Positions 8,373 to 62,103 of a stretch of 64,000 bases of DNA are shown one piece after another. Numbering within the stretch: position 1 is the first letter of the stretch; the number at the start of each line of letters is the position of its first letter. The stretch covers positions 1 through 64,000 of the forward strand of contig VCJN01002489.1 of the NCBI GenBank assembly GCA_006384855.1, in the 5' to 3' direction. The position numbers were made by a program, and so were the translations under genes. A model generated the notes under the pieces. That model had not been told where the DNA came from. It did not search any database and worked only from the letters and a program-made list of their open reading frames with translations. Source of the DNA: Tetraselmis striata (lineage: Eukaryota; Chlorophyta; Chlorodendrophyceae; Chlorodendrales; Chlorodendraceae).

Positions 8373-9330
8373 GCACCAGGATTCCGCTGCAATTCTATGT
8401 GTACGCGTATTAGGTTCTGCACAGGGTCTGCGGTTTTCCGCAGATCAGCATGCAGTGCAGATACTAGGAAAGTATGGCGGTACAACATTGGGTTATCACG
8501 AGCAGTAAACCATGTAACAATGAAGCCTGCGCCTAAAGTACACCTTGATATATATGTGCCTGGTCACAAGCTAGGTAGGTGTCGCACGGTACTCATGTTG
8601 AATCGCGCTTAAACATATTGAAACCTTAAATTCTAAAGCCGCAGCCGCCCTATGCTCGGGCATGACTTGGCCATGGGTACCAACCTTAGCTGACTGCCTG
8701 CGGTCATTGTGGGCGACCTCCATGTCGGCGGCGCTACCCAGGCTGTGCCTCCAGGCTGCACGGCATGCCAAATGCGCGGCCCTGCGGGCATTTGCAGAAC
8801 AATATAGCCCAGCATCAGCCTCCTCCGCATCATTGTCAGCAGCACCACCATCAGTGCAATCAGCACCATCACCATCACCAACTGTCAATACCACCCCAAT
8901 CCCAGCATCCACCTCCCCATGCCCATGCCCATGCTCATGCCCATGCTGCCGCCGCTCTTTCGCAGGGAGAGGGGGAACCTCCTCCAGCGCTCCAGGGCGG
9001 AGCCCAGGCGACTGCCTCCAGAGGGGGGAGGGGAGCATACACACACCTATGATGAGTACGACAGACAACTGTTTGCGCAGCACCAGGTTGTTAACCAGCA
9101 TGGAGGAGTGGCCCTGCTGCGCACGGCTAAGCAAGCGCCTTAGCGACCCCCCCCCCCCCCCCCCTCTCACCAACACGGCGCACACGTTCACGCCCTAGAC
9201 GGCGGCCACCAGCAGCGGGGCGGGGCGCCATAGAACAATGTCAAACCCGGCCAAAAGGACACGGCTCTCAATAGGAAAGGCTGGAAGGCTGTGCTCTCCC
9301 TTCCAGCCATAGAGGGCTCAGCTTTCCGCG
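8373..9330. other. Intergenic, simple-sequence rich
   Basis: No gene supported. CACCAT-type and CCCATG-type hexamer repeats at about 8860-8945 and a run of about 18 C at 9147-9164 create open frames on both strands that look like His/Pro-rich proteins; I regard these as artefacts of the repeats. The 3' UTR of the sulfotransferase gene should lie at the left. Confidence 0.45.
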
Positions 9331-9751
9331 CGCACATGTGTGTGTGTGTAAGTGTGTAAAAGGGTGTGTGTAAGTGTGTGTGGGGGGGGGCGGGTGGGTG
9401 TGTATGTGTGTGGGTGTGATGTGTGTCTTGGTGTGCGTGTGTGTATGTCTGTGTGTGAATCTATGTGGGTGTATGGATGTGTGTGTGCGTGTGGGGGGGG
9501 GGGGGGGGGGTGCGTGCGTGTGTGTGTGGGGGGGGGGGGGGGGGGGGCGGTGAGGGTGTCGGTGTGTAAATGAGTGTGAGTGTGTGTGTGTAAAAGGGTG
9601 TGTGTAAGTGTGTGTGTGGGAGGTGGGTGGGTGTGTATGTGTGTGGGTGCGATGTGTGTCTTGGTGTTTGTCTTGGTGTGCGTGTGTGTAAGTCTGTGTG
9701 TGAATCTATGTGGGTGTATGGATGTGTGTGTGCGTGGGGGGGGGGGGGTGC

Positions 9752-9786
<35 letters not shown>

Positions 9787-9874
9787 TGTGTGTGGGGGGG
9801 GGGGGGGGCGGTGAGGGTGTCGGTGTGTAAATGAGTGTGAGTGTGTGTGTGTGTGTGGGTTTTTGTAAGTGTGA

Positions 9875-9942
<68 letters not shown>

Positions 9943-10101
9943 ATGTAAATGTGTGTGTGGTGGGGGGGAGTGGGTGTGCGGGTGTGTGCGTGGTTATGTG
10001 TGGGTGTGTGCGTGGGTATGTGTGGGTGTGGGTGTGGGTGTGGGTGTGCGTGTGGGTGTGGGTGTGGGTGTGGGTGTGGGTGTGCGTGTGTGTGTGCGCG
10101 C

Positions 10102-10132
<31 letters not shown>

Positions 10133-10200
10133 TGTGTGTGCGTGTGCGTGCGCGCGTGCGTGCGTGTGGGGGAGGTTCTGGGTGTGGGTGTGCGCGCGCG

Positions 10201-10272
<72 letters not shown>

Positions 10273-10380
10273 TTTGCTTGCGTGCGTGCGTGCGTGCGTG
10301 CGTGGGTGGGTGAGTGGGTGTATGGGTTTGTGTGTGTGGGGGGGTGTATGTGCATTTGTGTGTAAGGGGGGGGGGGGGGG
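9331..10380. repeat. 1-kb TG/poly-G microsatellite
   Basis: Nearly pure TG dinucleotide runs broken by GGGTG units and several poly-G runs of 12-22 bases (for example 9493-9510 and 9529-9547). A unit of roughly 240 bp appears to be duplicated (9340-9580 resembles 9590-9835). It abuts exactly the truncation point of the left Copia copy at 10381. Confidence 0.9.
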
Positions 10381-10762
10381 GCGTCGGCGTCGGCGAGCGG
10401 GCAAGGGCGGCGTGAGGCAATGGCGGTGTGGAGGCGATGTCCGGCAGCGTTTGGGCGGCGAACGCAGCAGTATATCCACATGGATGGAAGAAGGGAACGG
10501 TCTTGGTAGGAGTGAGGTAGGCCGGGTAGCACACACCCGGGCGATGAGACGCAGTGTGGCGCCAGTGGAACGCGCGCTCCAGAGCGTCATGCTCGCACTC
10601 GCTGTCACTGTCGCCATTGCCGTCATCACCACGGACATCCACATCGCTGGTGGTATCGCAGAAGTTGTCGACAGCAATCATCATGATCAGTTGATCAATG
10701 GCATCCGGTGTAGACGGAGGGACGGCGTCCGGGTAGTCAGCGGCATCATGTGTGGGAGGTCG

Positions 10763-12350
10763 CTACTGTGGCGGGCTCCAGTCACACGGTGTGCAGCTGC
10801 CGCCAGACGAGCTGTCAGGCACCGCGCCTGGCATGTTGTTGTCGCTCGAGGCATCGTAATCACCTTCGCTGATGCGTAGGAAGGCGCATGCAGCCTGGCG
10901 CGCCGCATGGTTGCGGCGGCGCACAGCATGGTTGCGGCGGCGGCGCAGATGGCGGTTGCGGCGATGAGGTGACTTGGGCTCGGCGTCAGGATCCTCAGCG
11001 GACGCCTCCAGCGCGTCAGGCTCCGCGGCATGCTCGCCCGACTCCTCGGGCTCCTTAGACTCATGACACGCCGCAGCAGACTCCACTGGCTCCGCGGGCG
11101 CCTTAGACTCATCAGTCTCCTGCTCAGCACCCATGGCAGGCTCCGCAAGTGGCATGATGGATGTTACCACCACATCAGCCTCGGGGAGCATGGGACGCTT
11201 GCCATCCGCAATATCCGCCCGGAGCTTGTAGCACTCCTCGCGCATGTGAGAGCGGCTCCAACAGAAGGTGCAATGGGTGATCACGTTGAAGTCGGTGGTG
11301 ACTGGCGCCAGACGTTCTGCTGATGTGGGGCAGCTGGGCAGGTTGAGGTGAGAGGTCGCCACAAAAGCAAATTGATTCCTTGGCCACGTGGGCATGCTCC
11401 TTGTCGCCAGCGGCGTCAGGGCGGCCGCGGCCGTCTCTTGCAGGTGGGTTGCGATCAAGGTGAACACGGCCCGCGGCCTTGTCCCGGGCGTAGCTTCGGC
11501 AGTCACGCTTCGGGTGGCCAGGGATGCCACAGTAATAGCAGCGGCGCTTGTTGACGCCGGGACGGTCTGACGGCTGCGTAGACGAGTGGCCAGCGCCGCC
11601 GGACGCCAAGGAAGACAGCATGGCGGCGAGCTTGGACATGGTTGCATCTTCAGCGCCGGGCTGAGGAGGAGAGAGCTCCTCTTTGAGTCTTGCGACCATG
11701 GCAGTGAGATCAGCCTCACTCAGTTTGCCATCCTTCACGGCGCTCGGCTGCGACGGGGGCGGCGCGGCCAGGAATGCTGCAGCAGTTGACTCGGCGGCAG
11801 GCGCACGGGAGGTAAGACGGACAGCCTTCGCTGCCTCAAGGAAGGTGTCAGGCCTGCTGCGAAGGAGGTGATCGTACTCAGACTTGAAGTCAGGTTGACG
11901 CAGACCATCACGGAAGTGGTTGATCAGCTTGGCGTCAGTGACAATCGTGCCGGCTCTGTCAAGCATCATGCGGGCAAGCATCAGGCGGGCGATGAACGAT
12001 TCGAGGTCCTCGTGAGGAGATTGCTTGGTAGACAGGGAGCCCTCAAGGGTGGAGATGTAGGTCTCAGGTGGCGGAGCAAAAGCAGCCTTGAGGGCTTGCA
12101 GGGCGTGGTAGCCCTTACGGGTGTTGTAACGGTAGCTGACGTCCAGGAGGTGAGTCGCCGCGGTCCTGCCAGGAAGCAGGTTGAGCAGCAGGTGGAAGAC
12201 TTGGGCGTGGCAGTCGTCAGAGGTTGTGGTGTCATCAGCGACAAAGATATTAGAACACCCCTCCTCGCTGGTGAGACGACTCTCAAGCTGAAACTGCCAC
12301 AGCAGCCATGAGGCAGCATCAAAATCACCAGGACGAGCGAAGGACTCCAT
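10763..12350 (-). pseudogene. Copia gag, frameshifted copy
   Basis: Gag of the truncated Copia copy, beginning about at 12384-12350 and ending at the TAG next to 10763. It reads MESFARPGDFDAASWLLWQF and onward in one frame to about 11375, then a 4-base insertion moves the rest into another frame. Its zinc knuckle is complete, CYYCGIPGHPKRDC (C-x2-C-x4-H-x4-C), whereas the full-length copy has lost the first cysteine. The second knuckle CTFCWSRSHMREEC is also complete. The TAG that ends gag is the same as in the full-length copy. Confidence 0.8.
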
Positions 12351-12534
12351 AGTCCTTGGTCTTCAAGCGCGCATGGGACATGGTAGCAAGGATTCCAACG
12401 AGGGGTGACGGAGGACGCCAGAGGACGACGAGGATGAGACGAGCGGAGAAACCCAGAGGTTGAGAAACCTAGGTGGAAGCGAAGACGAAACAACGACGAG
12501 TGGCGCAGGGACATGCGCGATCAGGCCCATAACA

Positions 12535-12982
12535 TGTTAGTGTTGACACAAGGCGGCTGCAGCTGACAGACAAGCAGCAGCAGGTGAGTGTGAGTGCACA
12601 GGACGGCAACACGACCTTGCAGGTCGAGTGAGGAGCTGGTGGGAAGAACGAAGTGATTTTCAAAGGCTAGGTTTCTCCAACTTGGCTGGTGGGCATGTTT
12701 GCAACATGCATGCCTAGCCGGTCTGTGGCATCCTGGCCACTGAAATGGCCTCTAGTAGTTACCGTTGTACCTTGGTTTTGGTACGTTTGATGTAACTTTT
12801 CTAGTACTTTATGCTTTGTTGGCGTGGACATAAATGGTCAACAGTCACTTGAGCATGTTGCCCATCTGGGCGCAATCCTAAATGTACCCAGGTGCAGTAC
12901 CACTGTGGCAGCATGTTAGAGCAGCAAGAGCAGCTACAAGTCACAGCAGTTCAGCGCTCTCATCAGCATATTAGTATCAACA
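12535..12982 (-). repeat. Copia LTR (truncated copy)
   Basis: On the minus strand it runs from TGTTGATACTAATATG at 12982 to ...CACTAACA at 12535, about 448 bp. It is clearly homologous to the LTRs at 14433-14876 and 21377-21820 but more diverged from both than they are from each other. The primer-binding site next to it (12524-12534) reads TGTTATGGGCC, close to the anticodon region of initiator tRNA-Met. Confidence 0.85.
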
Positions 12983-14432
12983 CCCCCCCCCCCCCCCCCC
13001 CCAACCTCAGAAGCGCCGGTCAGAGGAAGCCGTGGGGTTCTCATGTTCCCCGATTCAAACGCGTCCGACACGGTCACAGAATTACAGCACGAAAACATTT
13101 TCGATGCGGCATCAAGGGGCTGGTTGGACGCCGTGCATGGGGAGGCAGGCTTTGACAGCTATGAACATGTTGAATATGACATATTTCAACATGGCGGCAG
13201 TTCAGTGTCGGTATCTATATACACTGGGAAGGCATACAACTATACAAGGTGGGAGTCTGCAAGCAGACGATTACGCTTTGGATAGAGTGTCGTCTGATCT
13301 CCGCTGTTGACACACCGTGTACGCAATGGGCGAGTGGCGGGTGTGTGTTGTTACACGCACGTTGGGTGCCCCGCCATGCTCGCGTGGAACGTAACGACAA
13401 GTCCGGGCTGTGGGAAAATCGGCACAACGGCCTTGAGCATTTGCGCGCCTCCGTGCCCTTCGTTCGCCTAGTACAAGGCTGCCCCGGAAGGTCTCATGAA
13501 TAAGACCCTTCTCCATTTGCTTCAAAAGGGGTCGACGCCACTGAAGACCATGCTGCAATTTTCCGAGCGTGACATACATCCATGCGGGGTGTTGGAGTCC
13601 CGTCGTGCTCGGGAGAGAAGTGAATAAGAGGGTTCGTCGTTTGAAGACAAGCATGTCACAGCAACGGGTGCGGTTGGAGCTCTCGAGCTTCCACGACTTG
13701 CAAGAGTGGGCTGATTCCCACATGACGCCGGAGGTCGAGTACCTCGATGACGTGGAGCACACGAGGCTGCTTGTTCTCCGTGGTAGGATCCATCGACAAG
13801 TTGTCGCGGTCGCGATTTCCAGTCTCTCTGGCTTAATCGCGTAGGACGAGGCGGGCGGGAGCGATTCAAAAGCCGGAACTGAACCGGATCTTGCAGACCT
13901 TCTAACTATTTGTAGTGGGATTGCCGAGGTTCCTACGCCCCCCGCGGCCCACTACACCTGACCTAATGTCGCTTAATCTTCCTCTTCCGTTCGCTCCTGC
14001 GGTTGCTGCCCGTTGCGATCTTGTACGACGTTGAGAGCGAAAGTGTCGCCGTGGTGCATCTACGTATCCCAGCGCTTGCGGAGGTACGCCATACGGAACC
14101 GATGGCCGTCGTCGATGGCCTGCATGTTGTTATGGCCTCGAGCCGCTGCCCAAAGACCGGAGTAGGTCCCTCGGTGACGCATGCCACCGCCAGCAGCTTC
14201 CGCAGCTCGACCGTCGAGCCGGCAATGAAAGCCCCGTAGCACGTGGCGTGGTAGTAACTATTCACCTGCTGCCGGCTGGAGGCGGGGGTTACCAAGCAGA
14301 TACTCGAGGACACGGTCGAGGGCAATGGGCGGGGAAGAGCCCGAGGCGTCGCACACTAGCTATCGGGATACATCCCGTTCTCAAAACCAGGCAGACCCGT
14401 AGCGAGGGCGGTTTTTCGATCAAGGTAGTGTC
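12983..14432. other. Spacer between head-to-head Copia copies
   Basis: No recognisable gene. It starts with a 20-base C run. Short frames (for example plus 13617-13844, minus 13963-14325) are of unknown family and uncertain coding status; the minus frame contains a plausible stretch CYGAFIAGSTVELRKLLAVA but nothing I can identify. Confidence 0.4.
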
Positions 14433-14876
14433 TGTTGATACTAATATGCTGATGAGAGCGCTGAACTGCTGTGACTTGTAGCTGCTCTTGCTGCTCTAAC
14501 AAGCTGCCACAGTGGTACTGCACCTGGGTACATTTAGGATTGCGCTCAGATGGGCAACAGGCTCAAGTGACTGTTGACCATTCATGTCCACACCAACAAA
14601 GCATAAAGTACTAGAAAAGTTACATCAAACGTACCAAAACCAAGGTACAACGGTAACTACTAGAGGCCATTTCAGTGGCCAGGATGCCACAGACCGGCTA
14701 GGCATGTTGCAAACATGCCCACCAGCCAAGTTGGAGAAACCTAGCCTTTGTAAATCACTTCGTTCTTTCCACCAGCTCCTCACTCGACCTGCAAGGTCGT
14801 GTTGCCGTCTTGTGCACTCACACTCACCTGCTGCTGCTTGTCTGTCAGCTGCAGCCGCCTTGTGTCAACAATAACA
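14433..14876 (+). repeat. Copia 5' LTR
   Basis: 444 bp, TGTTGAT...AATAACA. Identical in length to the 3' LTR and about 98-99 percent identical by my count. It should hold the element's promoter; no canonical TATA box is obvious. Confidence 0.92.
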
Positions 14877-14887
14877 GGTTATGTGCC
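14877..14887 (+). other. Primer-binding site, half-tRNA-iMet type
   Basis: GGTTATGTGCC lies directly after the 5' LTR. It matches 10 of 11 bases of the complement of the anticodon stem-loop of plant-type initiator tRNA-Met (GGTTATGGGCC), the half-tRNA primer used by Copia-group elements. The truncated copy has the G at the mismatching position. Confidence 0.6.
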
Positions 14888-15030
14888 TGATCGCGCATGT
14901 CCCTGCGCCACTCATCGTTGTTTTCGTCTTCGCTTCCACCTAGGTTTCTCAACCTCTGGGTTTCTCCGCTCGTCTCATCCTCGTCGTCCTCTGGCGTCCT
15001 CCGTCACCCCTCGTTGGAATCCTTGCTACC

Positions 15031-16644
15031 ATGTCCCATGCGCGCTTGAAGACCAAGGACTATGAGTCCTTTGCTCGTCCTAGTGATTTTGATGCTGCCT
15101 CATGGCTGCTGTGGCAGTTTCAGCTTGAGAGTCGTCTCACCAGCGAGGAGGGGTGTTCTAATATCTTTGTCGCTGATGACACCACAACCTCTGACGACTG
15201 CCACGCCCAAGTCTTCCACCTGCTGCTCAACCTGCTTCCTGGCAGGACCGCGGCGACTCACCTCCTGGACGTCAGCTACCGTTACAACACCCGTAAGGGC
15301 TACCACGCCATGCAAGCCCTCAAGGCCGCTTTTGCTCCGCCACCTGAGACCTACATCTCCACCCTTGAGGGCTCCCTGTCTACCAAGCAATCTCCTCACG
15401 AGGACCTCGAATCGTTCATCGCCCGCCTGATGCTTGCCCGCCTGATGCTTGACATAGCCGGCACGATTGTCCCTGACGCCAAGCTGATCAACCACTTCCG
15501 TGATGGTCTGCGTCAACCTGACTTCAAGTCTGAGTACGACCACCTCCTTCGCAGCAGGCCTGACACCTTCCTTGAGGCAGCGAAGGCTGTCCGTCTCACC
15601 TCCCGTGCGCCTGCCGCCGAGTCAACTGCTGCAGCATTCCTGGCCGCGCCGCCCCCGTCCCAGCCGAGCGCCGTGAAGGATGGCAAATTGAGTGAGGCTG
15701 ATCTCACTGCCCTGGTCGCAAGACTCAAAGAGGAGCTCTCTCCTCCTCAGCCCGGCGCTGAAGATGCAACCATGTCCAAGCTCGCCGCCATGCTGTCTTC
15801 CTTGGCGTCCGGCGGCGCTGGCCACTCGTCTACGCAGCCGTCAGACCGTCCCGGCGTCAACAAGCGCCGCTCCTATTACTGTGGCATCCCTGGCCACCCG
15901 AAGCGTGACTGCCGAAGCTACGCCCGGGACAAGGCCGCGGGCCGTGTTCACCTTGATCGCAACCCACCTGCGGGAGACGGCCACGGTCGCCCTGACGCCG
16001 CTGGCGACAAGGAGCATGCCCACGTGGCCAAGGAATTTGCTTTTGTGGCGACCTCTCACCTCAACCTGCCCAGCTGCCCCACATCAGCAGAACGTCTGGC
16101 GCCCGTCACCACCGACTTCAACGTGATCACCCATTGCACCTTCTGTTGGAGCCGCTCTCACCTGCGCGAGGAGTGCTACAAGCTCCGGGCGGATATTGCG
16201 GATGGCAAGCGTCCCATGCTCCCCGAGGCTGATGTGGTGGTAACATCCATCATGCCACTTGCGGAGCCTGCCATGGGTGCTGAGCAGGAGACTGATGAGT
16301 GTAAGGCACCCGCGGAGCCAGTGGAGTCTGCTGCGGCGTGTCATGAGTCTAAGGAGCCCGAGGAGTCAGGCGAGCCTGCCGCGGAGCCTGACGCGCTGGA
16401 GGCGTCCGCTGAGGATCCTGACGCCGAGCCCAAGTCACCTCATCGCCGCAACCGCCATCTGCGCCGCCGCCGCAACCATGCTGTGCGCCGCCGCAACCAT
16501 GCGGCGCGCCAGGCTGCATGCGCCTTCCTACGCATCAGCGAAGGTGATTACGATGCCTCGAGCGACAACAACATGCCAGGCGCGGTGACTGACAGCTCGT
16601 CTGGCGGCAGCTGCACACCGTGTGACTGGAGCCCGCCACAGTAG
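15031..16644 (+). CDS. gag: Copia Gag
   Basis: A 537-residue capsid/nucleocapsid protein starting at the ATG in CTACCATGTCC. The first half (FDAASWLLWQFQLESRL ... LRQPDFKSEYDHLL) is the usual Copia-type Gag fold (UBN2-like). Two CCHC zinc knuckles follow: YYCGIPGHPKRDC near residues 287-300, in which the first cysteine is replaced by serine (TCC; the truncated copy has TGC), and CTFCWSRSHLREEC near residues 371-385, complete. The C-terminal tail is acidic then Arg/His-rich. It ends with TAG at 16642-16644, beyond which the same frame stays open into pol; the same TAG exists in the truncated copy. Confidence 0.85.
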   Translation: MSHARLKTKDYESFARPSDFDAASWLLWQFQLESRLTSEEGCSNIFVADDTTTSDDCHAQVFHLLLNLLPGRTAATHLLDVSYRYNTRKGYHAMQALKAAFAPPPETYISTLEGSLSTKQSPHEDLESFIARLMLARLMLDIAGTIVPDAKLINHFRDGLRQPDFKSEYDHLLRSRPDTFLEAAKAVRLTSRAPAAESTAAAFLAAPPPSQPSAVKDGKLSEADLTALVARLKEELSPPQPGAEDATMSKLAAMLSSLASGGAGHSSTQPSDRPGVNKRRSYYCGIPGHPKRDCRSYARDKAAGRVHLDRNPPAGDGHGRPDAAGDKEHAHVAKEFAFVATSHLNLPSCPTSAERLAPVTTDFNVITHCTFCWSRSHLREECYKLRADIADGKRPMLPEADVVVTSIMPLAEPAMGAEQETDECKAPAEPVESAAACHESKEPEESGEPAAEPDALEASAEDPDAEPKSPHRRNRHLRRRRNHAVRRRNHAARQAACAFLRISEGDYDASSDNNMPGAVTDSSSGGSCTPCDWSPPQ

Positions 16645-19389
16645 CGACCTCCCACACATGATGCCGCTGACTACCCGGACGCCGTCCCTCCGTCTACACC
16701 GGATGCCATTGATCAACTGATCATGATGACTGATGTCGACAACCTCTGCGATACCGCCAGCGATGTGGATGTCCATGGTGATGACGGCAATGGCGACAGT
16801 GACAGCGAGTGCGAGCATGACGCTCTGGAGCGCGCGTTCCACTGGCGCCACACTGCGTCTCATCGCCCGGGTGTGTGCTACCCGGCCTACCTCACTCCTA
16901 CCAAGACCGTTCCCTTCTTCCATCCATGTGGATATACTGCTGCGTTTGCCGCCCAGACGCTGCCGGACATCGCCTCCACACCGCCATTGCCTCACGCCGC
17001 CCTTGCCCGCTCGCCGACGCCGTTCCAGCCTCTTCCGTCTGTTACTGATGTCAAGGCCGACCCTGCTGCTTTTACCAAGGGCAAGCCGATTCGGATTTTG
17101 TCACTGTGTGCTGGCGCCCTTCACTCCATCGCGGAGGGCCTGGCCGAAGCTGGTGTCCCCATTGGCGACATGATCTGCTGCGAGACCGACAAGCACGTGC
17201 GCAAGGCCGGCCGGGTGGAGCAGGAGCGCAAGCAAGCCCGCCATCCTCATCAGATCCCTGCCAGCACCATCCACGACTCCTACGGCCGCATCAACCCTGA
17301 TGTCCAGTCCATCACTGACGACGAACTGGCGTCTCTTGGGCATGGCGACCTAGTGATTGCCTCACCGCCCTGCGCCCCGTTCTCAGCCGCCAACCCTCAT
17401 CGCCTCATGCTCGCCGACCCGCGTGCTGGTGGGCTGTACGGTTCTATTGATGTCGTCAAGCGTCTGGCGTCGATGCAGTCTGGTGGCGTCAACTTCATTC
17501 TCGAGAACGTCCCCGGTGCTGCGCGCTGCCATGAGATCGTTGAGGCTATGGGCACGCCAATTCTGGTCCGAGCGCACGAGCTTGGGTCAACAGCCAGACG
17601 CGATACAATGGTATGGAGCAACATCCGTGACATCGATTTCTTTCGCGCTCACTATCAGCAGGCCCAGCGGGCACCGCTGTCTGTTGGGGAGCTCCTTACC
17701 ACACATGGCTTCTCTCCACGGTGGACCGCTCCTTCTCATCTGCAGCATGGCCTCTTCTCGAAGTTCGTCTCCCGCCGGGGCAGTTACGCCTACCGCATGA
17801 CCACCGCCACGACAGACGCACCTGCGGTGCCCGGCAAAAGCATGCTTCTACTCGACGGCGAGCCTGAAACCCCCTGTTTGGACATCGTGGCTGTGAGCAT
17901 GGGCTTCCCGGCTGACACATTGAACATCCCTGGTCTCTCGCTTGATCAGCGCCGCATGATGCTGGGCGCCTGCATCGATGCCAACATCGGCAAGTGGCTG
18001 GCACTTGCCATCGTTAAGGCCAGTGCGTCAGAAGTTGCGCTACCCAGCATCAAGTCGTTCCCGCAGTCGTGGGTGCTTGACACCGGCGCCACCTCTCACA
18101 TGGTGGCCAACATCTCTGACTTCGCGGACTACAAGCCCATTTCCCCGCGCTGGATTCACGGACTGTGTGCACGAGCCGTCGGCATCGGCACTGTGCGAAC
18201 CACCATTCCCGACGACAACGGCACTGCTCAGACAGCCGTTCTTCGCAATGTGTTACACGTGCCAGATCTCGCGTTCCGCTCTGACAACCAGATCTATCGT
18301 CTCTTCAGTAGCCGGCAAGCTGAGGAGCAGAATGCCCATCTCCAGATCATCATCAACTCCCGCGGCAGCCGCCTCGAAGTGGGCGATACCGTCTTCCCGG
18401 TGGAGAGCGTCGACCGCCTGTACGTGCTGCACAGCCGCATTGAGCGGTCTGGACCCCCAGCGGGCATCTCCCTCGTCTCTGCAGTGAAGCAAGACTCCAA
18501 GTATCTGTGGCATGCCAGGCTCGGTCACATCCATGAGCGCGCCATGGACGCTCTGCGCGGCACCGCAGGCACGCAGGTTGACTACTCCACGCAGACGCGT
18601 CTACCGTTCTGCCACGCCTGCGCCATGATCAAGGCTACTGCAGCCCCGCGACCGCGCACCTGTCATCCTCGACCAGATGCACCATGTCACATGCTGGGCT
18701 GCGACTTCTGGGAAAACCCCACCAGATCGTTGCAAGGCAACTCCTACGTGTTTGGAGCTGTTGATTACGCCAGCAGCTGGTGCTGCATTCTATTTGTCCG
18801 CTCCCGCGCCGCCGCTGTCGACTGCCTGCGCCGCGTCCTTACGATCGCCCGCAGCATGGGGCACACCGTCCGTGCCCTACGTCTCGACAACGACAGCGTG
18901 TTCCACAGTCGCGCCTTCATCGCTGAGTGTGACGCTCATGCACTGCGACGTGAGTATTCTGCTCCCTACAGCCAGTTTCAGAATGGGCTGGTGGAGCGTA
19001 CCTGGCGCACCTTGTGGACCTGGGGCCGCTGCATGCTGGCCTATGCTGCCCTTCCTACCCCGTACTGGCAGTTTGCCATGGCTACCGCTGCCTACCTGCA
19101 CAACCGCACCCCCAGGAGCACCGGCGCTGCACCCATGTCCATCGTCGCCGCAGCCGCCCCTGATCTCTCCCATTTGCGCGTCTTCGGCTGTCCAGCGTAC
19201 GTTCATCAACAGCGCGCTCAACGCATCAAGTCGGACCCCTCTGCTCGACTCGGCATCTTCGTGGGCTACGACGCTTTGCATGCGGACGACTGCTACCTCG
19301 TCTATTTTCCTGATACCAACACCACCGTGGCAACGCGCAACGCTCAACGAGCATTGGGTTCTGCCGGCTACCCCTTCACCTGCCACTGA
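16645..19389 (+). CDS. pol: Copia Pol part 1: DNMT, protease, integrase
   Basis: Same frame as gag. Numbering from Met at 16723: a linker (1-120), then a cytosine-5 methyltransferase (about 121-430) with motif I RILSLCAGALHSIAEGL (124), motif IV SPPCAPFS with the catalytic cysteine at 217 (17371-17373), motif VI LENVP (261-), motif VIII ARRDTMVWSN (~292) and motif X MGFPADTL...RRMMLGACID (393-). The layout resembles DNMT3-type enzymes. Protease follows with LDTGATSH (453), then the integrase zinc finger (WHARLGH, CHAC at 597-633) and catalytic D661, D722 and E758 (35 residues between D722 and E758). All catalytic residues are present. The frame closes at 19389 where RT continues in another frame. 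By inference it could methylate element or host DNA. Confidence 0.88.
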   Translation, partial: RPPTHDAADYPDAVPPSTPDAIDQLIMMTDVDNLCDTASDVDVHGDDGNGDSDSECEHDALERAFHWRHTASHRPGVCYPAYLTPTKTVPFFHPCGYTAAFAAQTLPDIASTPPLPHAALARSPTPFQPLPSVTDVKADPAAFTKGKPIRILSLCAGALHSIAEGLAEAGVPIGDMICCETDKHVRKAGRVEQERKQARHPHQIPASTIHDSYGRINPDVQSITDDELASLGHGDLVIASPPCAPFSAANPHRLMLADPRAGGLYGSIDVVKRLASMQSGGVNFILENVPGAARCHEIVEAMGTPILVRAHELGSTARRDTMVWSNIRDIDFFRAHYQQAQRAPLSVGELLTTHGFSPRWTAPSHLQHGLFSKFVSRRGSYAYRMTTATTDAPAVPGKSMLLLDGEPETPCLDIVAVSMGFPADTLNIPGLSLDQRRMMLGACIDANIGKWLALAIVKASASEVALPSIKSFPQSWVLDTGATSHMVANISDFADYKPISPRWIHGLCARAVGIGTVRTTIPDDNGTAQTAVLRNVLHVPDLAFRSDNQIYRLFSSRQAEEQNAHLQIIINSRGSRLEVGDTVFPVESVDRLYVLHSRIERSGPPAGISLVSAVKQDSKYLWHARLGHIHERAMDALRGTAGTQVDYSTQTRLPFCHACAMIKATAAPRPRTCHPRPDAPCHMLGCDFWENPTRSLQGNSYVFGAVDYASSWCCILFVRSRAAAVDCLRRVLTIARSMGHTVRALRLDNDSVFHSRAFIAECDAHALRREYSAPYSQFQNGLVERTWRTLWTWGRCMLAYAALPTPYWQFAMATAAYLHNRTPRSTGAAPMSIVAAAAPDLSHLRVFGCPAYVHQQRAQRIKSDPSARLGIFVGYDALHADDCYLVYFPDTNTTVATRNAQRALGSAGYPFTCH

Positions 19390-21382
19390 TGTGTGGCGGT
19401 ATGCCACACAGGAGGGGATGATGTGGCGGGAAGGGCATGCATCAACTTCAGGAGGGGCATCTACCTCCGGAGGGGCATCGACCTCAGGAGGGGCATCCCG
19501 CCCACTGCGCCGTCCCGACAGTGACAGTGATGCCAGCGAAAGCGACGAAGATTTCTTCCCAAACGCCCAGCCTGAGCGAGATGAGACGCCCGACCCAGCC
19601 GGAGCCGGTGCCCCGCAGCCACCAGCAGTGACTCCCCAGCCTCCTACTCCTGCCGTCCCTGGTCCAGCACGCCCTACAGTGCCAACCGCCCCGACGTCCA
19701 GCGGACCGCCACAGCCTGCCGGCTTGTCCCGATCAAGCCGCCCGCGCATCGACTACCGCAACCCCGTCAGCGCCCGCCACCAGGCATGGAGCAATCGAGA
19801 TCATGCCCATCTGGCAGGCGAGGCACCCGGCGATCCGCAGACGCACACGGAAGCTCTGACCGGTCCAGATGCACCACACTGGCTGGAGGCGATGTGGGTA
19901 GAATACCGATCCCTCATAGCCAGGAAGACGTGGGTACTGGTCACCCTACCATCCGGCAGGAAGGCAGTCAGGTGCAAGTGGGTATTCAAGACCAAGCGCA
20001 ACGCCGACGGCAGCCTGGCACGCTACAAGGCGCGACTGGTGGCCAAGGGCTTCAGCCAAGTGCATGGCATCGACTACAACGACACCTTCGCACCTACCGT
20101 GAAGTTCACCACGCTACGCATCATATTTTCCCTGGCAGCACATTACGGCATGGAGCTCGAGCAGACCGACATCGACCGTGCGTTCCTCTACGCAGACCTG
20201 GAGGAGGATATCTACATGACACAAGCCCCTGAGTTTGAACAGCAAGGCCCCAACGGAGAGGAGCTGGTCTACCACCTGAAGAAGAGCGTCTATGGCCTCA
20301 AGCAGGCGCCGCACGATTGGTACCTCAAGCTGCGCGAGCACATGCTGGGGCAGGGATTTACTCAGCTCAAGACCGACCCCGGCGCCTACATCTACCGATC
20401 CGGCAACACCTTCAGCATTGTGGCGATCTACGTGGACGACATCCTGATCTGCAGCAACTGCACCACCTGGGTGGTTCAGTTCAAGCGCAACCTCGCTGAC
20501 GAGTTCGACATCAAGGACCTGGGAGCCTGCACCTGGATTCTAGGCATGAAGGTGGAGCGCGACCGAGACGCGGGCACCATCAAGATACATCAAGGGAAGT
20601 ACGTGACCGACCTGCTGGAGCGTTTCAACATGACAGACTGCAACCCTGCTGATATTCCCAGCGTCGGCAACGATGCTCGCGACTCACCTGCGCTAGACGA
20701 TCCAAGCATTTTCAGGAGCCTCATCGGCGGACTGCTGTACGCCTCCACTGCCACCAGGCCTGACATCACTGAGGCCGTCAACCGCCTGTGCAGAGCTATG
20801 TCAGCCCCAACTCGCGCACACATGGAAGATGCAAAACATGTTTTGCGCTACCTCAAGAAGTACCCTGATCGAGGCATCACCTTCAGCGGGAGCGACATGC
20901 TGCAGCTAGCTGGATGGTCTGACTCAAACCACGCCTCGATGACCAGCCAAGGCAAGGCCACCTGCGGATTCTACTTCACCATCTGCGGAGGAGCAGTGAG
21001 CTACAAGTCGCTGTTGCAGTCTATCGTCACCCTATCCACTGCGGAGGCGGAATACGTCGCCATGGCAATCGCCACTCAGGAGGTGATGTTCATCAGGCAG
21101 ATGTTGCAGGAGCTGGGACTCGCACTTGACGGCCCTACCCCTATCGGAGAGGACAATCAAGCATGCATCGCTATCGCCACCAATGACGTGACATCCAGCC
21201 GTACCAAGCACATGGACATCCGCTACCACTTCGTGCGCGAGGCATGCAAGAATGGCGACATCAGTATCCACTACGTGGAAACCAGGGAGATGGCCGCCGA
21301 CATGTTCACCAAGCCTCTACGCAACCCTCTCTTCGCCAAGTTTGCTGCAAAGGTCATGCAGTTCATCGAGGAGGGGTGTTGA
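19385..21382 (+). CDS. pol: Copia Pol part 2: reverse transcriptase, RNase H
   Basis: Frame +1 relative to the integrase frame; no start codon is needed if made by frameshifting near 19340-19385. Low-complexity hinge (SGGASTSGGAS repeats), then the Copia RT core: WVFKTKRNADGSLARYKARL, QTDIDRAFLYADL, the catalytic YVDD at 20429-20440, and LIGGLLYASTATRPDI. RNase H follows with WSDSNHA, STAEAEYVAM and EDNQACIAI, ending TKHMDIRYHFVRE ... DMFTKPL. No internal stop. The stop TGA at 21380-21382 lies inside the first bases of the 3' LTR. Together with part 1 this looks like a potentially functional polyprotein except for the frame change at the INT/RT junction. Confidence 0.9.
   Translation, partial: TDVWRYATQEGMMWREGHASTSGGASTSGGASTSGGASRPLRRPDSDSDASESDEDFFPNAQPERDETPDPAGAGAPQPPAVTPQPPTPAVPGPARPTVPTAPTSSGPPQPAGLSRSSRPRIDYRNPVSARHQAWSNRDHAHLAGEAPGDPQTHTEALTGPDAPHWLEAMWVEYRSLIARKTWVLVTLPSGRKAVRCKWVFKTKRNADGSLARYKARLVAKGFSQVHGIDYNDTFAPTVKFTTLRIIFSLAAHYGMELEQTDIDRAFLYADLEEDIYMTQAPEFEQQGPNGEELVYHLKKSVYGLKQAPHDWYLKLREHMLGQGFTQLKTDPGAYIYRSGNTFSIVAIYVDDILICSNCTTWVVQFKRNLADEFDIKDLGACTWILGMKVERDRDAGTIKIHQGKYVTDLLERFNMTDCNPADIPSVGNDARDSPALDDPSIFRSLIGGLLYASTATRPDITEAVNRLCRAMSAPTRAHMEDAKHVLRYLKKYPDRGITFSGSDMLQLAGWSDSNHASMTSQGKATCGFYFTICGGAVSYKSLLQSIVTLSTAEAEYVAMAIATQEVMFIRQMLQELGLALDGPTPIGEDNQACIAIATNDVTSSRTKHMDIRYHFVREACKNGDISIHYVETREMAADMFTKPLRNPLFAKFAAKVMQFIEEGC
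21368..21376 (+). other. Polypurine tract
   Basis: GAGGAGGGG directly before the 3' LTR, the expected primer site for plus-strand synthesis. It also codes for the last Gly-Glu residues of RNase H. Confidence 0.7.
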
Positions 21383-21820
21383 TACTAATATGCTGATGAG
21401 AGCGCTGAACTGCTGTGACTTGTAGCTGCTCTTGCTGCTCTAACAGGCTGCCACAGTGGTACTGCACCTGGGTACATTTAGGATTGCGCTCAGATGGGCA
21501 ACAGGCTCAAGTGACTGTTGACCATTCATGTCCACACCAACAAAGCATGAAGTACTAGAAAAGTTACATCAAACGTACCAGAACCAAGGTACAACGGTGA
21601 CTACTAGAGGCCATTTCAGTGGCCATGATGCCACAGACCGGCTAGGCATGTTGCAAACATGCCCACCAGCCAAGTTGGAGAAACCTAGCCTTTGTAAATC
21701 ACTTCGTTCTTTCCACCAGCTCCTCACTCGACATGCAAGGTCGTGTTGCCGTCTTGTGCACTCACACTCACCTGCTGCTGCTTGTCTGTCAGCTGCAGCC
21801 GCCTTGTGTCAACAATAACA
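21377..21820 (+). repeat. Copia 3' LTR
   Basis: 444 bp, same ends as the 5' LTR. Differences seen by eye are at about six positions (for example AACAAGCTG/AACAGGCTG and GACCTGC/GACATGC). It is followed by ATGTC, one mismatch from GTGTC upstream of the 5' LTR. Confidence 0.92.
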
Positions 21821-54992: not shown

Positions 54993-56130
54993 ATGGCTAC
55001 ACCAGGAGAGACGCCACCTGAGGACAGCGGAAGCTTTCCGGTAGCGGCCACTGCCGGCGAAGCACAGCCGATTCCGCTCGAAGGAGGTCAAGAGGGCACG
55101 CAACCGACCCTCGCAAACATGATGAGCATGCTTCAACGACTAGCCGACCGAGTCGAGACTATATCGACGGAGCAAGCGAAGATGCAAGAAGTAGCGCAAG
55201 CTACAACGGCGGCAACGGCGGAGATTCGCCGCTTGGACGAGTACGTGCGACAAGGCTGTAGTCATTTCGACGACCGAGTGAACCGGAGCCGAGTTGTTGA
55301 GCAGCAGATGCGAGACCAGCTTCGTTCTGCTCGGACCGAGCGATGTGAAACCAGCGAAGATAAAGAAGCTATCGACTACGAATATCGACGAGTTACGGAA
55401 CTGGTTTCGTCATGCACGAGGCCACCTGAAATATCACAACGTAAACCCGGAGGAACCTCGTAGCGTGTACTGGGCATCTGGCTATTTTCACGGACATGTA
55501 TCCAAGTGGTGGTACGCGCAAGTGGCGAGTACGCACGACGAAATTGGCGGCGGTTTTACCGGTATTACGCACATGGAGGCGGCACTAATCACCGAATTCT
55601 GTGGACGTACACCGGCGAAGCAAGCTCGTATCAATCTGGATCGCGCGACACAACGGACTACAGTACAAAAGTACGCGAATTATTTCCGCGAGCAACTACT
55701 GGAGTTACCCCATCGTCACGAGGAAGATAATGTACATGACTTCCAGCGCGGACTGAAACCCCACATTCGAAAGGAAGTTGCCCTGAAACACCCTAGGACC
55801 ATGGCAGAAGCTGTACAGGCAGCCCTGGCTGTTGAAGCTGCGGAGCGGGAGATAGATGTACACCGCAAGATCCGTCGCGGGCGCCTAACCATTAAGGACG
55901 ACGATGGCGACGACGACGAGCCGTACTACATCAGTGCTGAGGGTGAGGCTACAGAACAAGAAGACGACCTGTTGATGGCGCGGCGATTGACCGAGGAGGA
56001 GTTTGAGAGATTTAAGAAGGAGGGACGCTGCTTTATCTGCAGGGCGAAAGGTCATGTTGCGTCCGCGTGCCCGAGTAAGAAGAAGAAGATTTCTGATTAT
56101 CGACCCATAAAGACCCGGCCGGGAAACTAA
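54993..56130 (+). pseudogene. gag: Gypsy Gag, one frameshift
   Basis: Starts MATPGETPPEDSGSFPVAA at 54993. A coiled-coil-like N-terminal region (MLQRLADRVETISTEQAKMQ) leads into a frame change between about 55330 and 55380. The second frame carries the Ty3-type Gag core (ELRNWFRHARGHLKYHN, FHGHVSKWWYAQ, VQKYANYFREQLLELP, DDFQRGLKPHIRKEV-like) and ends with the zinc knuckle CFICRAKGHVASAC (C-x2-C-x4-H-x4-C). The stop is at 56128-56130. Confidence 0.8.
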
Positions 56131-56156: not shown

Positions 56157-57299
56157 CGACAGGGTGAAGGACTGTCCCCTAAAACGGCTCGCGAGACTAC
56201 AGAAGTACAGCCCTCGTATCCTCGAACGACACTGAGGCGTGATTTCCTCCACAAGGATTTCAGCGACTAGATGGTACATCGCGAATTATTTCACGAGTAC
56301 ACGAAGAAATACGGACCCTGCGACCTGGACGGAGCTTGCGATAATGACGGCCTGAATTCTCAAGTTCCTGGTAGTTCTTGCTGTCCGACGCGCCCATTTC
56401 TGGAACAAGATCTCGGAGAATATCGGCGTATTTGGCTAAATGCCCCGTATGACCGAATTGAAGAATTTCTGGGTCACTGCCTTCGGCAGAAGTGATTGCA
56501 TCCGCATCTACGAGCAATTATTGTGGTCCCAAAATGGTCGCGTAAGCCGTGGCTTCGACTACTTAGAAATTTTCGTCTGGTGGATGAGTTGCCAGCGGAG
56601 AATTCTGTGTTTACGTGTCCAACGAACGATGGCATAGAAGGTGCGAGACAAGATGTTGGCCCCACTCGATGGACGACACAGATCTACGCTGACGATGGCG
56701 CCGGCGTACGGTTTCTACCGCAGCACTTGAGAACCCCACCGAAGCCTGAGTGGACGCACTCGAAGGTTCTAGTCACCGATGGCAGACGAGTGCTTCTGAC
56801 TGTAGAAGACAGCGGACTGATTTGGTTTCCAGAAGGCAAGCGCGGCGACACGGACGCGACGCCGGAGACAACAGCAGTACGACGATTACTCGAGCAAACT
56901 GGGTACCGGGTACAGGAGAGCAATCTACGGTACCTCGGCACTCAGCGGACGGGAGACAACCGGTGTCATGTATACCTGTATCGCGTTCGTCGTAATACTG
57001 TACCTACGAAGACCCCTTTGAACCGTGCACTATGGACAACCTGGAAGAAATTATTGGAGGCACGAAGTACGGGTTATCCGGAGACGGAGACAGTACGCTA
57101 CCCACTACGGTACGAAAGCTTCGGCGAACAAATTGATGAATATGTCAACCGTAACGTCCGACTACCTGGCGAAGACTCCACATCGCGTTTGTGCAACGTA
57201 TCTTCACCGAGTGGTACCCGACTACTGACCGTTACTGGCGAATTGCGAGGACGACACTGTAAAATACTGGTGGACTCTGGTGCCACCGAAAATTTTGTC
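56157..57299 (+). pseudogene. pol: Gypsy Pol part 1: Dam-like MTase, Nudix-like, protease
   Basis: One frame broken by TAG (56268-56270) and TGA (56493-56495). Residues after 56271, FHEYTKKYGPCDLDGACDND then RRIWLNAPYDRIEEFL and AIIVVPKWSRKPW, match the layout of phage/retroelement Dam-type N6-adenine methyltransferases (LD-x-AxD-x-N, N-P-P-Y, then a VP...W strand). The catalytic tetrad reads NAPY (56439-56450) instead of N/D-PPY. Next comes a Nudix-like region, LIWFPEGKRGDTDA...TTAVRRLLEQTGY (56835-56906), with the REUXEE core degraded to RRLLEQ. Then the protease, ILVDSGATENFV (57264-57299), after which the YR element interrupts. The methyltransferase and Nudix names rest on motifs only. 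Confidence 0.65.
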
Positions 57300-57548
57300 G
57301 TTGTTAAGTACTTAAATGAGTTTAGTCAGACGACGGACCGAGTTGTGCGGTCAAACGACTACCACCCGGAAAATATAGCACAGTAGCTTGTCATCGGCTC
57401 TGTCTAGAATCTTTCAGTATGGGACAGTGAGCAGCGGACTCGCGACCGCACCAGCTCCCGACTTGTTTCCCTGCCTGCCTGCAGCTGCTACTTAGCCAAC
57501 TGTCTAGACCATAGCGCTCATCCCTCTTGTTGTTGTGCTTCACGCACC
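57298..57548 (+). repeat. Split direct repeat A1
   Basis: TCGTTGTTAAGTACTTAA... to ...GCTTCACGCACC; matches 61853-62103 along its full length with scattered substitutions. Confidence 0.9.
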
Positions 57549-57636
57549 AGCAATCGCGCGGCACCTGTTGCCGCGAGGGGAAGCGATCCTTGTCGATATT
57601 ATCCGCCTGCGCTAGCACGACGCCCTGCGCACGGCA

Positions 57637-58595
57637 TTGTCAGGGTACAGTATGCCTGACAACTCCGGTGACGCCCCTAGCGGCCTAGCCGAAGACCGCC
57701 TCGCCGCGCTGGAGGCCGGTTTCGCGGGGCTTACGGAGCTTCAGGAAGCCCTACGAAGTGACCTTCAGCGGCCTAGTGGTTCTACTCCTACCGAGCCCCG
57801 CGCGCCCGCTAGTAGCGCTGCCGCGGCGAGCTCCCAGCACGACGCACCGGCTCGCGCAGAGCAGGTTTCCGTGCCCGAGCCCCAGCGCGGTGGCCCTAGT
57901 GCCGCTGCCCCTTCCTTAGTCTGGGAGGAGTGGGCTCATTTAATTGGCCCCGGCTTTTCCATCCAGCCCAGTCCCGGCCTCTCTCCGATTCCCCAGCTGT
58001 ACGACATCTCATCTGACGAGACGCAACGCCAGCTCATCGCGCGTCGGCACTGGGCCACTTTGCATCAGTACCGCTCTGTACTGCTTTGGCTTCTACGATG
58101 CGGTGGCCCACGCGGCTCTCTGCGAGGCGCTCGCGTCGATTAAGAGAGCGGCAAGCGCGGCGCAGCCCCTTGGTGAGGAGGACCTTCGTCTCCTTGAAGC
58201 GGGCGTGGCGGCCTACGACGCCTCAAATAAACACCGGCGCGACTACCTGGCGTTTATCCGCCTCAACGTCGAACGATGCGGATGCGCGGACCAAGACAGT
58301 CGCACAGGTGGTTCGCCGCAGCCTCCTCAAGCCCGATTTCGCGGACTATGGTTCGGAAGCAGTGGCGCAGCTCAGCGACGAGCTTTTGCGCCGCGAGGCC
58401 GAGTACAGCGTCACGGCGGCGGCAAAGGCAGCCGTACAACAACGCTTCGGCGTGGGACCAGACCCCAACGAGGAGGAGGACAACGACGACGAGCCACCAT
58501 CCAGAGCGCGACGGCGCCGGCCCTCCGGACGCCGCCCACGCCCAGACTTCCGCCCCACAGCCGACGACGCCGACAAGGGCAAGGGCAAGGCCTGA
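57637..58595 (+). pseudogene. YR element Gag-like protein, frameshifted
   Basis: Starts MSGYSMPDNSGDAPSGLAED (57637 or the internal Met at 57652). The N-terminus is Ala/Pro/Ser-rich, then WEEWAHLIGPGFSIQPSPG. The frame changes near 58060-58080 (SVLYCFGFYDAVAHAALCEA) and again near 58270, ending in a charged tail rich in Asp/Glu and Arg (EEEDNDDEPPSRARRRRPSG) with the stop at 58593-58595. The position and composition fit the Gag of YR retroelements; no zinc knuckle is present. Confidence 0.55.
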
Positions 58596-60363
58596 CGGTG
58601 CGGCCCGCCGTTCCGCTTCGTTACCACGCCCCTCCACGTTTCTGCGCCATCGCGTGCGGCAAATCGGAGCGAGCGGGCGCGTGCTCCGGTGGGTTCGCGA
58701 GGGAGTGCCGCTACCTTTCTCTGGCGCGGCGCCCACGCCTTTCCACCGGGGCGTCTCTCTACATATACAACGCTACGCCTCAGCAGCTCGAGTGGTGGGA
58801 GCGGGAGAGCCAGCGACTAGTAACAGTCGGCGCGCTAGAACCTGGCGTGCGCGAGCACTACGTGTCGCGAGTCTTCCTAGTACCAAAGCCGGGCTGCAAC
58901 CAGTGGCGCCTTGTAATAGACCTGCGCCATTTGAACTCTTACTGCGCGGTCTATTCCATGCGATTCGAAACTCTGCGTCGCCTGCGGTACCTGGCGAAAC
59001 GCGGCGACTGGGCGTTTTCCTTCGACCTGCAGGACGGCTACTACGCCCTGGGCTTGCGTGAGGACGTCCGCGACTTCTTTACAATCAACGTACGTGGAAC
59101 CCTGTGGCGCTTCGCGGCCCTCCCCATGGGTTGGTCGCTGAGCCCTTACTACTTCTGCACTCTGATGGCGGTCATGGTGCGCTACCTGCGTCAACCAGAC
59201 TTCGCGACCTACAGCAGCTACGGCCGGCCCTTCCGTCGACGCTTGCGTCGCCGGAAGGCGCGCGGCGTTTGCCTCCTACCGTTCATCGACGGCTTCCTGT
59301 TTCTGGCACCTTCGCGCCAGCTGGCTCTACGCCTACGGGCCGAGGTCGAGCGAGTTTGGGGGCGCCTGGGCCTGGCCAAGCACCCCACCAAGGCGCACCC
59401 CGAGCTCACCAAGCAGCTGCATCACTTAGGCATGGACTTGGACCTGGTCACTATGCAGTTCCGCGCCCCAGCGGCGAAACTGCGTCGGCTCTCCAACCTG
59501 GACCGCGACCTCCTGTGCATCGCTGCGCGCCGCCGCCGCCACGCGCCGGCCAAACTCCTTGCGTCTCTCGCCGGGCAGGGCCAGTTCCTCTACCTCGCGA
59601 TGCCTCCGGCGCGTTTCTACCTCCGCGAGGCGCACACCGTCCTGGGCCGATGCTCCTCTCCGAGCGGCAAGGTCGTTCTGACGCGTCAGCTCATTCGCGA
59701 TTTGGAGTGGTGGCGCGATGTTCCCACGCGCCACAACGGCGCACCGATTCTGCGCCCGGTGGAGACAGCCTATCTGCACACGGACTCCATCCAGTACGGC
59801 AGGGGTGCGGTACTGTGCGAAACTACGGAGGCACGCGGATATTGGTACGAGGAGGATCGTCGACGTCATATATATAACGTACAAGGAGCTCAAAGCGGTA
59901 CGTCTCGCCATACATTCATTTTTGCCACGTCTGATGGGGCGCCGCGTACTTTTGTACGAGGACAATCATGCGGTGGTGCATATCTTGTCCAATTTGACTA
60001 CTCGGTCACCGGTACTTATGGCGGAACTTCGCAAGCTATGGTATTTGCTGGATGTACACGATATTCGTTTACGAGTACGGTACATTCGGTCTGCGGCGAA
60101 CGCATGGGCGGACAAGCTTTCGCGCGAGAAGAATTTTTCCGATTGGATGATCAATCCTCGTATATTCCGGTACGTCGATCGCATCTGGGGGACCGCATAC
60201 GGTCGACCGATTCGCAACTATGGAGAACGCTTTGTTACCTCGGTACAACTCCCTGGGGACGGTCCCAGGTACCGAGGCGGTGGACTCCTTGGCCCAGTCG
60301 GACGCCACGTGGCGCGCCAAAGTGAACTAGTGCAATCCCCCCTGGCAGCTGCTGGACGATCTG
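58596..60363 (+). pseudogene. YR element RT/RNase H, catalytic Asp lost
   Basis: RT of DIRS type: FHRGVSL, EHYVSRVFLVPKPGCNQWRL, VIDLRHLNSYC, FDLQDGYYALGL, LPMGWSLSPYYFC. The active site reads FIDG (59282-59293) where both other DIRS-type copies in the window have YMDD, so the second catalytic aspartate is missing. The thumb/connection has PARFYLREAHTVLG. RNase H begins with LHTDSIQYG, and after a frameshift near 59868 continues with TYKELKAVRLAI, YEDNHAVVHI and AWADKLSREKNF in another frame to about 60320. Not functional as read. Confidence 0.85.
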
Positions 60364-61787: not shown

Positions 61788-61826
61788 CTGGTTTTCACCG
61801 GTAACTGTGGCCTTCCGGGTTTGCCC

Positions 61827-61852
61827 GGCAACGTGACTCGCACTCTTTCTAA
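61827..61852 (+). repeat. Split direct repeat B1
   Basis: GGCAACGTGACTCGCACTCT then TTCTAA; matches B2 at 62166-62191 except T/G at the 21st base. Confidence 0.85.
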
Positions 61853-62103
61853 TCGTTGTTAAGTACTTAACTGAGTCTAGTCAGACGACGGACCGAGTTG
61901 TGCGGTCAAACGACTACCACCTCGAAAATATAGCACAGTAGCCAGTCATCGGCTCTGTCTAGAATCTTCCAGGATGGGACAGTGAGCAGCGGACTCGCGA
62001 CCGCACCAGCTCCCGACCTGTTTCCCTGCCTGCCTGCAGCTACTACTTAGCCAACTGTCTAGACCATAGCGCTCATCCCTTTTGCTGTTGCGCTTCACGC
62101 ACC
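61853..62103 (+). repeat. Split direct repeat A2
   Basis: Internal copy of A1 (57298-57548), directly after B1. Confidence 0.9.

Follow-up and report, generated by a model that had tools for sequence, protein, structure and literature searches.

A Ty1/Copia retrotransposon of the green alga Tetraselmis striata encodes, between Gag and the protease, a domain with the residues of a C5-cytosine methyltransferase, and this domain is a constant part of its Copia family. The element occupies positions 14433–21820 of the 64,000-nucleotide stretch that we analyzed (positions 1 to 64,000 of contig VCJN01002489.1, assembly GCA_006384855.1; hereafter the window). Taken as a whole, our best explanation, to which we give an even chance, is that the window element is a damaged member of a large Copia family, whose DNMT3-like domain within Gag-Pol would methylate the element's own cDNA.

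Anatomy of the Window Element

Pfam matches and motifs place LTRs, Gag, protease, integrase, reverse transcriptase (RT), and RNase H in that order on the forward strand, an anatomy of which we are highly confident. The Copia identity given in the original prediction is borne out by matches to RVT_2, Pol_BBD, rve, and gag_pre-integrase, and its near-identical LTRs differ at 6 of 444 positions. The 444-bp 5′ LTR (14433–14876, TGTT...AACA) is preceded by GTGTC, and the 3′ LTR (21377–21820; 438/444 positions identical) is followed by ATGTC, so that the target duplication matches at four of five bases. A putative primer-binding site adjoins the 5′ LTR (14877–14899); it is assigned by position and presumably resembles the half-tRNA primer site of copia. 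A polypurine tract (GAGGAGGGG, 21368–21376) was read off the sequence.

The Gag frame (15031–16644) contains two zinc-knuckle places, one at 15871–15912, which has lost its first Cys, and one at 16135–16176; a Pfam search with Gag of the window copy returned no family, and zf-CCHC was found in relatives. A further open frame (16723–19389) encodes a linker, the methyltransferase, the protease, a GAG-pre-integrase region, the integrase, and an SH3-like domain. Within it, the 315-residue methyltransferase domain (17077–18021) is supported by Pfam, alignment, and trees, the protease region (18067–18273) contains DTGA at 18076–18102 and matches Pol_BBD over residues 450–517, and the integrase (18511–19344) displays an HHCC region, the D, D, and E motifs, and the SH3-like domain (Pfam rve and SH3_retrovirus). 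RT and RNase H motifs follow at 19925–21379 in a frame different from that of the integrase (YVDD at 20423–20446; RVT_2, 231 bits).

This copy is broken. A TAG at 16642–16644 ends the Gag frame and separates it from what follows, integrase and RT lie in different frames, with the change near 19.34 kb, and the Cys missing from the first zinc knuckle is present in copy L039. The ATG at 16723 is merely the first Met downstream of the TAG; L039 reads through from Gag uninterrupted. The window copy therefore lacks the unbroken Gag-Pol frame by which we judged autonomy, and open frames of 2147 residues exist in other genomic copies of its lineage. The original prediction had placed the methyltransferase motifs in one uninterrupted frame between Gag and protease and had described the protease, integrase, RT, and RNase H residues as intact: methyltransferase and protease do share a frame, and the motifs of all four enzymes are present, but the TAG cuts off Gag and, together with the frame change and the lost knuckle Cys, contradicts intactness of the element as a whole.

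The window also contains a second, partial copy of the element in inverted orientation (10385–12989, reverse strand); it covers an LTR, gag, and the first part of the following frame and matches at 98% identity over 2599 bases. Elsewhere, 251-base direct repeats that are 95% alike flank RVT_1 and phage-integrase SAM-like frames at 57298–62103, probably a tyrosine-recombinase retrotransposon; a Ty3-type Gag (55294–56127) and a NUDIX frame (56496–57383) lie in the 54–57 kb region, a further RVT_1 frame (111 bits) at 62212–63759, and a long, degenerate GT-rich repeat tract at 9325–10300. Scans of the window with Rfam at gathering level and for tRNAs found nothing.

Constancy of the Domain and Its Carriers

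Among solved Rubiscos, the rbcL of the 224-Mb assembly (2903 contigs) matches best 1gk8, from Chlamydomonas reinhardtii, and chains of equal score, in keeping with a chlorophyte host. We searched this assembly with the domain, scoring 126 of 419 first-look candidates, and the 126 rows correspond to 119 distinct places. The union with rows found only by the LINE-like domain query described below brings the number of distinct places encoding the domain to at least 160. Of the 33 RT matches of at least 95% identity, 30 are preceded by the domain at a distance of 1000–6000 nt, in most cases 1909 nt; another is preceded by a domain fragment at 984 nt, and for the remaining two the scored rows contain no domain. 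At 55–62% RT identity, the domain occurs at the expected upstream spacing in 14 of 17 matches.

Five Copia lineages carry the domain in the same position within open frames: A, which includes the window copy and L039 (2147 residues), B (L040, 2299), C (L042, 2483), D (L043, 2152), and E (L041, 2162). Between lineages, the domain is 31–51% identical and RT 36–72%. A relative, L045, whose RT is 47–50% identical to those of A–C, has a 1561-residue frame in which Gag is followed by the protease region with no match to the domain. This family is abundant (38 of 88 RT-search rows lie at L045-like identity), which means that Copia thrives in this genome without the enzyme, a point that we count against our explanation.

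In the protease-integrase-RT tree, ((B,C),A) and (D,E) stand at opposite ends of a branch from which L045 departs, and the domain tree agrees in shape. This likeness fits long co-evolution, together with either two gains or a loss on the way to L045; we sought an outgroup to root the Copia tree and found none, so one gain with one loss looks the same as two gains. We considered whether B and its near relatives have swapped the domain; this is unsupported, as nucleotide divergence changes little from one part of the frame to another, although the domain has the higher dS in each of three pairs of B with near relatives, clearly in two. The two LTRs share 99.4% identity over 470 bases in one lineage B element and 100% over at least 393 bases in one lineage E element, indicating that domain-bearing elements moved recently.

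A related domain is also carried outside Copia. L044 is one open frame of 3505 residues with Pfam matches to RVT_1, PCIF1_WW (55 bits), DNA_methylase, and RNase_H; the PCIF1 family is one of mRNA-cap methyltransferases. An endonuclease upstream of the L044 RT was unconfirmed by Pfam, and endonuclease-like motifs are visible only by eye. Both L044 and L093 (G000:C2687:12000-25499) are LINE-like and combine two nucleic-acid methyltransferase-type domains in one retrotransposon, and a methyltransferase of the L044 type is carried at no fewer than four places. In two trees the L044 domain is nearest to those of lineages D and E (support 95/78 and 93/84), and an alternative tree uniting the Copia domains without L044 is not rejected (p-AU 0.277). 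The DNMT3-like domain may thus be a trading module, gained by Copia, kept across RTs only 36–41% identical, and swapped with a LINE-like element, such that two modes of replication converge on marking their own nucleic acid; this is a possibility that we lean slightly against.

Motifs and Class of the Methyltransferase

The methyltransferase motifs lie where the original prediction had put them: motif I at 17092–17118, PPC at 17362–17385 with the catalytic Cys codon at 17371–17373, LENV at 17500–17511, the RRD of motif VIII (GSTARRD) at 17584–17604, and motif X (LGACIDAN) at 17962–17985, all sharing one open frame with the protease DTGA. The domain therefore has the catalytic Cys, ENV, motif VIII Arg, and motif X by which C5-cytosine methyltransferases are recognized. 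Its Pfam DNA_methylase match (PF00145) scores 19.8 bits, below the curated cut-off of 22; three relatives in the same genome pass that cut-off (L026, 50 bits; L044, 35.5–40.5; L043, 30.9), which speaks against a chance match. An alignment of nine domain sequences has 30 invariant columns. The catalytic Cys, ENV, motif VIII Arg, and other key residues are present in 27 of 27 full domains from fetched loci, a set that leans towards whole domains because split or cut ones, along with duplicate places, were excluded; the PP preceding the catalytic Cys is altered in two of the 27, to S in one and to C in the other. Motif VIII reads GSxARRD...WxN (GSAAHRD in lineage E). In the alignment its counterpart is SAAHRARYFWGN of DNMT3A; the bacterial rows and M.HhaI have the YG.PQ form instead.

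The original prediction also called the domain DNMT3-like and named a profile search that failed to find a cytosine methyltransferase fold as grounds for abandoning it. Our nine-sequence profile finds C5 methyltransferases among solved structures, with M.HaeIII (1.2e-9) and DNMT2 (2.9e-8) scoring at or above DNMT3A (8e-8); the profile scores leave the class undecided. With single sequences, the best match of the window domain is DNMT3A (E 0.011), that of lineages B and E is M.HaeIII, and that of the LINE-like domain is M.HhaI.

Our trees combined the domains with enzymes from phages, Asgard archaea, bacteria, and the same genome and with reference enzymes, among which the DNMT3A sequence is in part approximate. 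The retrotransposon domains form one group in two trees (98/96 and 100/99), and DNMT3A, on a long branch, is placed as their sister (97/98 and 92/97, with bootstrap values of 97 and 92). Holding the retrotransposon domains elsewhere gave p-AU values of 0.024 with DNMT2, 0.034 with M.HaeIII, 0.037 with M.HhaI, 0.002 with DNMT1, and 0.008 with an Asgard row, which serve as a guide only, because several tests were made and were picked after the first tree. The tree support for a DNMT3 affinity is moderate, given the long branch and partly approximate sequence of DNMT3A. The DNMT3-like label thus gains from the trees, motif VIII, and the best match of the window domain, and loses from the family profile and the matches of B, E, and the LINE-like domain; we regard the domain, with moderate confidence and from sequence comparison, as DNMT3-like, and the modest strength of this affinity is a further point against our explanation.

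Other sources for the domain were considered. Phage, bacterial, or Asgard-archaeal origin is not favored by the tree, in which 7 phage, 4 bacterial, and 3 Asgard rows lie outside the retrotransposon group; the prokaryotic and viral relatives comprise 30 viral-contig and 8 genome-contig loci, at 25–42% identity over part of the domain. The three best of the eight prokaryotic profile matches (L079–L081) are from Asgard archaea, with motif IV reading SPPCEPFSxAN compared to SPPCAPFSAAN in the window. Descent from the alga's own DNMTs was rejected for L009, L015, and L024, which fall outside the group in a tree that left out the exon-type L021–L023. L009 belongs to a separate multi-copy DNMT frame of 325 residues (L009–L014, L016–L020, and L025) with EQS for ENV, also outside the retrotransposon group; two contigs bearing this frame (C776 and C1230) also hold copies of the 1561-residue Copia family. 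L024 (G000:C2009) is an intronless 630-residue DNMT frame of bacterial look, and its contig may have entered the assembly as bacterial contamination.

Selection and Substitution Footprint

The domain is under purifying selection, with dN/dS of 0.32 among young lineage A copies (28 pairs) and 0.21 within lineage B and its near relatives (45 pairs). In three pairs of L040 with near relatives, dN/dS is 0.20–0.22 in the domain, 0.52–0.64 in linker plus Gag, and 0.30–0.54 in protease-integrase, part of the domain's lower ratio being due to its higher dS. Compared to lineage C, where dS is saturated, the order differs (domain 0.28, protease-integrase 0.20, RT 0.11), which counts against our explanation.

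Transitions outnumber transversions in lineages A and B by 40:9 at CG sites and by 77:59 at other C/G sites (Fisher p 0.002), in counts that inherited variants enter more than once. CpG observed/expected ratios are 0.79–0.96 for domain-bearing elements, 0.84 for L045, and 0.94 for the remaining window sequence; CpG is hardly depleted, and this too we set against our explanation. The footprint is compatible with some CG methylation and does not establish the element as its writer.

Proposed Role of the Domain

Cytosine methylation is the host's usual weapon against retrotransposons, and an element that wrote the mark itself would reverse the usual picture. We suggest, with reasons for and against nearly in balance and on sequence grounds, that the element methylates its own cDNA. 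The methyltransferase would be made as part of Gag-Pol and packed into the particle, where it could be released by the protease or act as a fusion, and would mark the double-stranded cDNA prior to integration. New copies might thereby pass as host-like DNA, or might soon be silenced, with less harm to the host. Support for our explanation as a whole comes from the position of the domain next to Gag inside the polyprotein, its constancy, its catalytic residues, its dN/dS, the near-identical LTRs, the excess of CG transitions, and a published assay of a Symbiodinium Dnmt3 (PMC5890265).

The main alternative, which we consider fairly unlikely, is that the enzyme methylates RNA (element RNA, a tRNA primer, or host RNA) instead of DNA. 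The profile scores the tRNA methyltransferase DNMT2 as well as DNMT3A, a PCIF1-like domain adjoins the methyltransferase in the LINE-like carrier, and PMC5890265 proposes RNA as the substrate of a LINE-borne enzyme that did not methylate DNA in yeast, a result that also weighs against our own explanation; the trees, on the other hand, place the domain with DNMT3A and disfavor placement with DNMT2. An unlikely second alternative is action in trans, by which the enzyme would raise host methylation or silence competitors such as the domain-less family. A related family of that kind is indeed present in the same genome, but it is common there and has a CpG ratio similar to the one seen in carriers. 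It is very unlikely that the domain has a structural or binding role in the particle and that catalysis no longer matters: lineage D, with PCC for PPC in motif IV, would suit such a role, whereas the catalytic Cys and ENV persist in all 27 full domains and dN/dS is low. Finally, there is a negligible chance of a one-off event in which a gene of the host or of a contaminant entered a single element. The original prediction had named a one-off insertion as a possible refutation; we found no point in its support, and it is ruled out by the spread of the domain over so many places and its presence in place in 30 of 33 close copies.

Cytosine methyltransferases have been described in retrotransposons before. 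PMC5890265 reports DNMTs from two types of Symbiodinium element, LINE and DIRS, and from a Klebsormidium Gypsy element; in an assay described there, the DIRS-borne Dnmt3 methylated CG de novo. PMC12344493 cites that paper in placing some DNMT3s of streptophytes and dinoflagellates in “LTR Copia and DIRS” elements, where the cited paper gives Gypsy for the LTR element, and describes ChloroDNMTs of chlorophytes and charophytes; PMC12477816 and PMC6338049, in the parts consulted, deal with other enzymes or general hypotheses. Among the titles and abstract openings covered, which include few subscription papers and preprints, none mentioned a chlorophyte Copia or LINE element with a cytosine methyltransferase.

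A chlorophyte case would add to those reported, as far as these sources go, from dinoflagellates and one streptophyte. With at least 160 places, lineages with whole frames, near-identical LTRs, and a domain-less family as a natural control, the alga offers a system for testing which part the enzyme plays in its carrier. Whether this capture is the same as the published ones, which the original prediction had left open, is now narrowed: superfamily and algal group both differ, compared by descriptions.

By the published descriptions, a close counterpart is KnitGypsy-Dnmt3 of Klebsormidium nitens (PMC5890265), likewise an LTR element from an alga of the green lineage whose Pol frame includes a Dnmt3-related domain under purifying selection; it is a Gypsy element of a streptophyte with the domain as part of Pol, whereas the window element is by Pfam a Copia element of a chlorophyte with the domain between Gag and protease. 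SymbioDIRS-Dnmt3 of Symbiodinium, as described there, shares a Dnmt3-class domain in a retrotransposon polyprotein and many copies, but is a DIRS element with a tyrosine recombinase in a dinoflagellate host. The DIRS elements with Dam-like methyltransferases in the same account resemble ours in carrying a DNA methyltransferase and differ in that theirs is an unrelated N6-adenine enzyme, and the eukaryotic DNMT3s and ChloroDNMTs described in PMC12344493 are, like our domain, C5 methyltransferases of eukaryotes, but are host genes. SymbioLINE-Dnmt of Symbiodinium (PMC5890265), finally, is the published counterpart of L044, since both are non-LTR elements with a DNMT and L044 has RVT_1. The domain orders differ: in SymbioLINE a DNMT of an orphan class is described from an ORF that precedes the one for RT, whereas in L044 the DNMT follows RT in one frame, beside the PCIF1-like domain and before RNase H.
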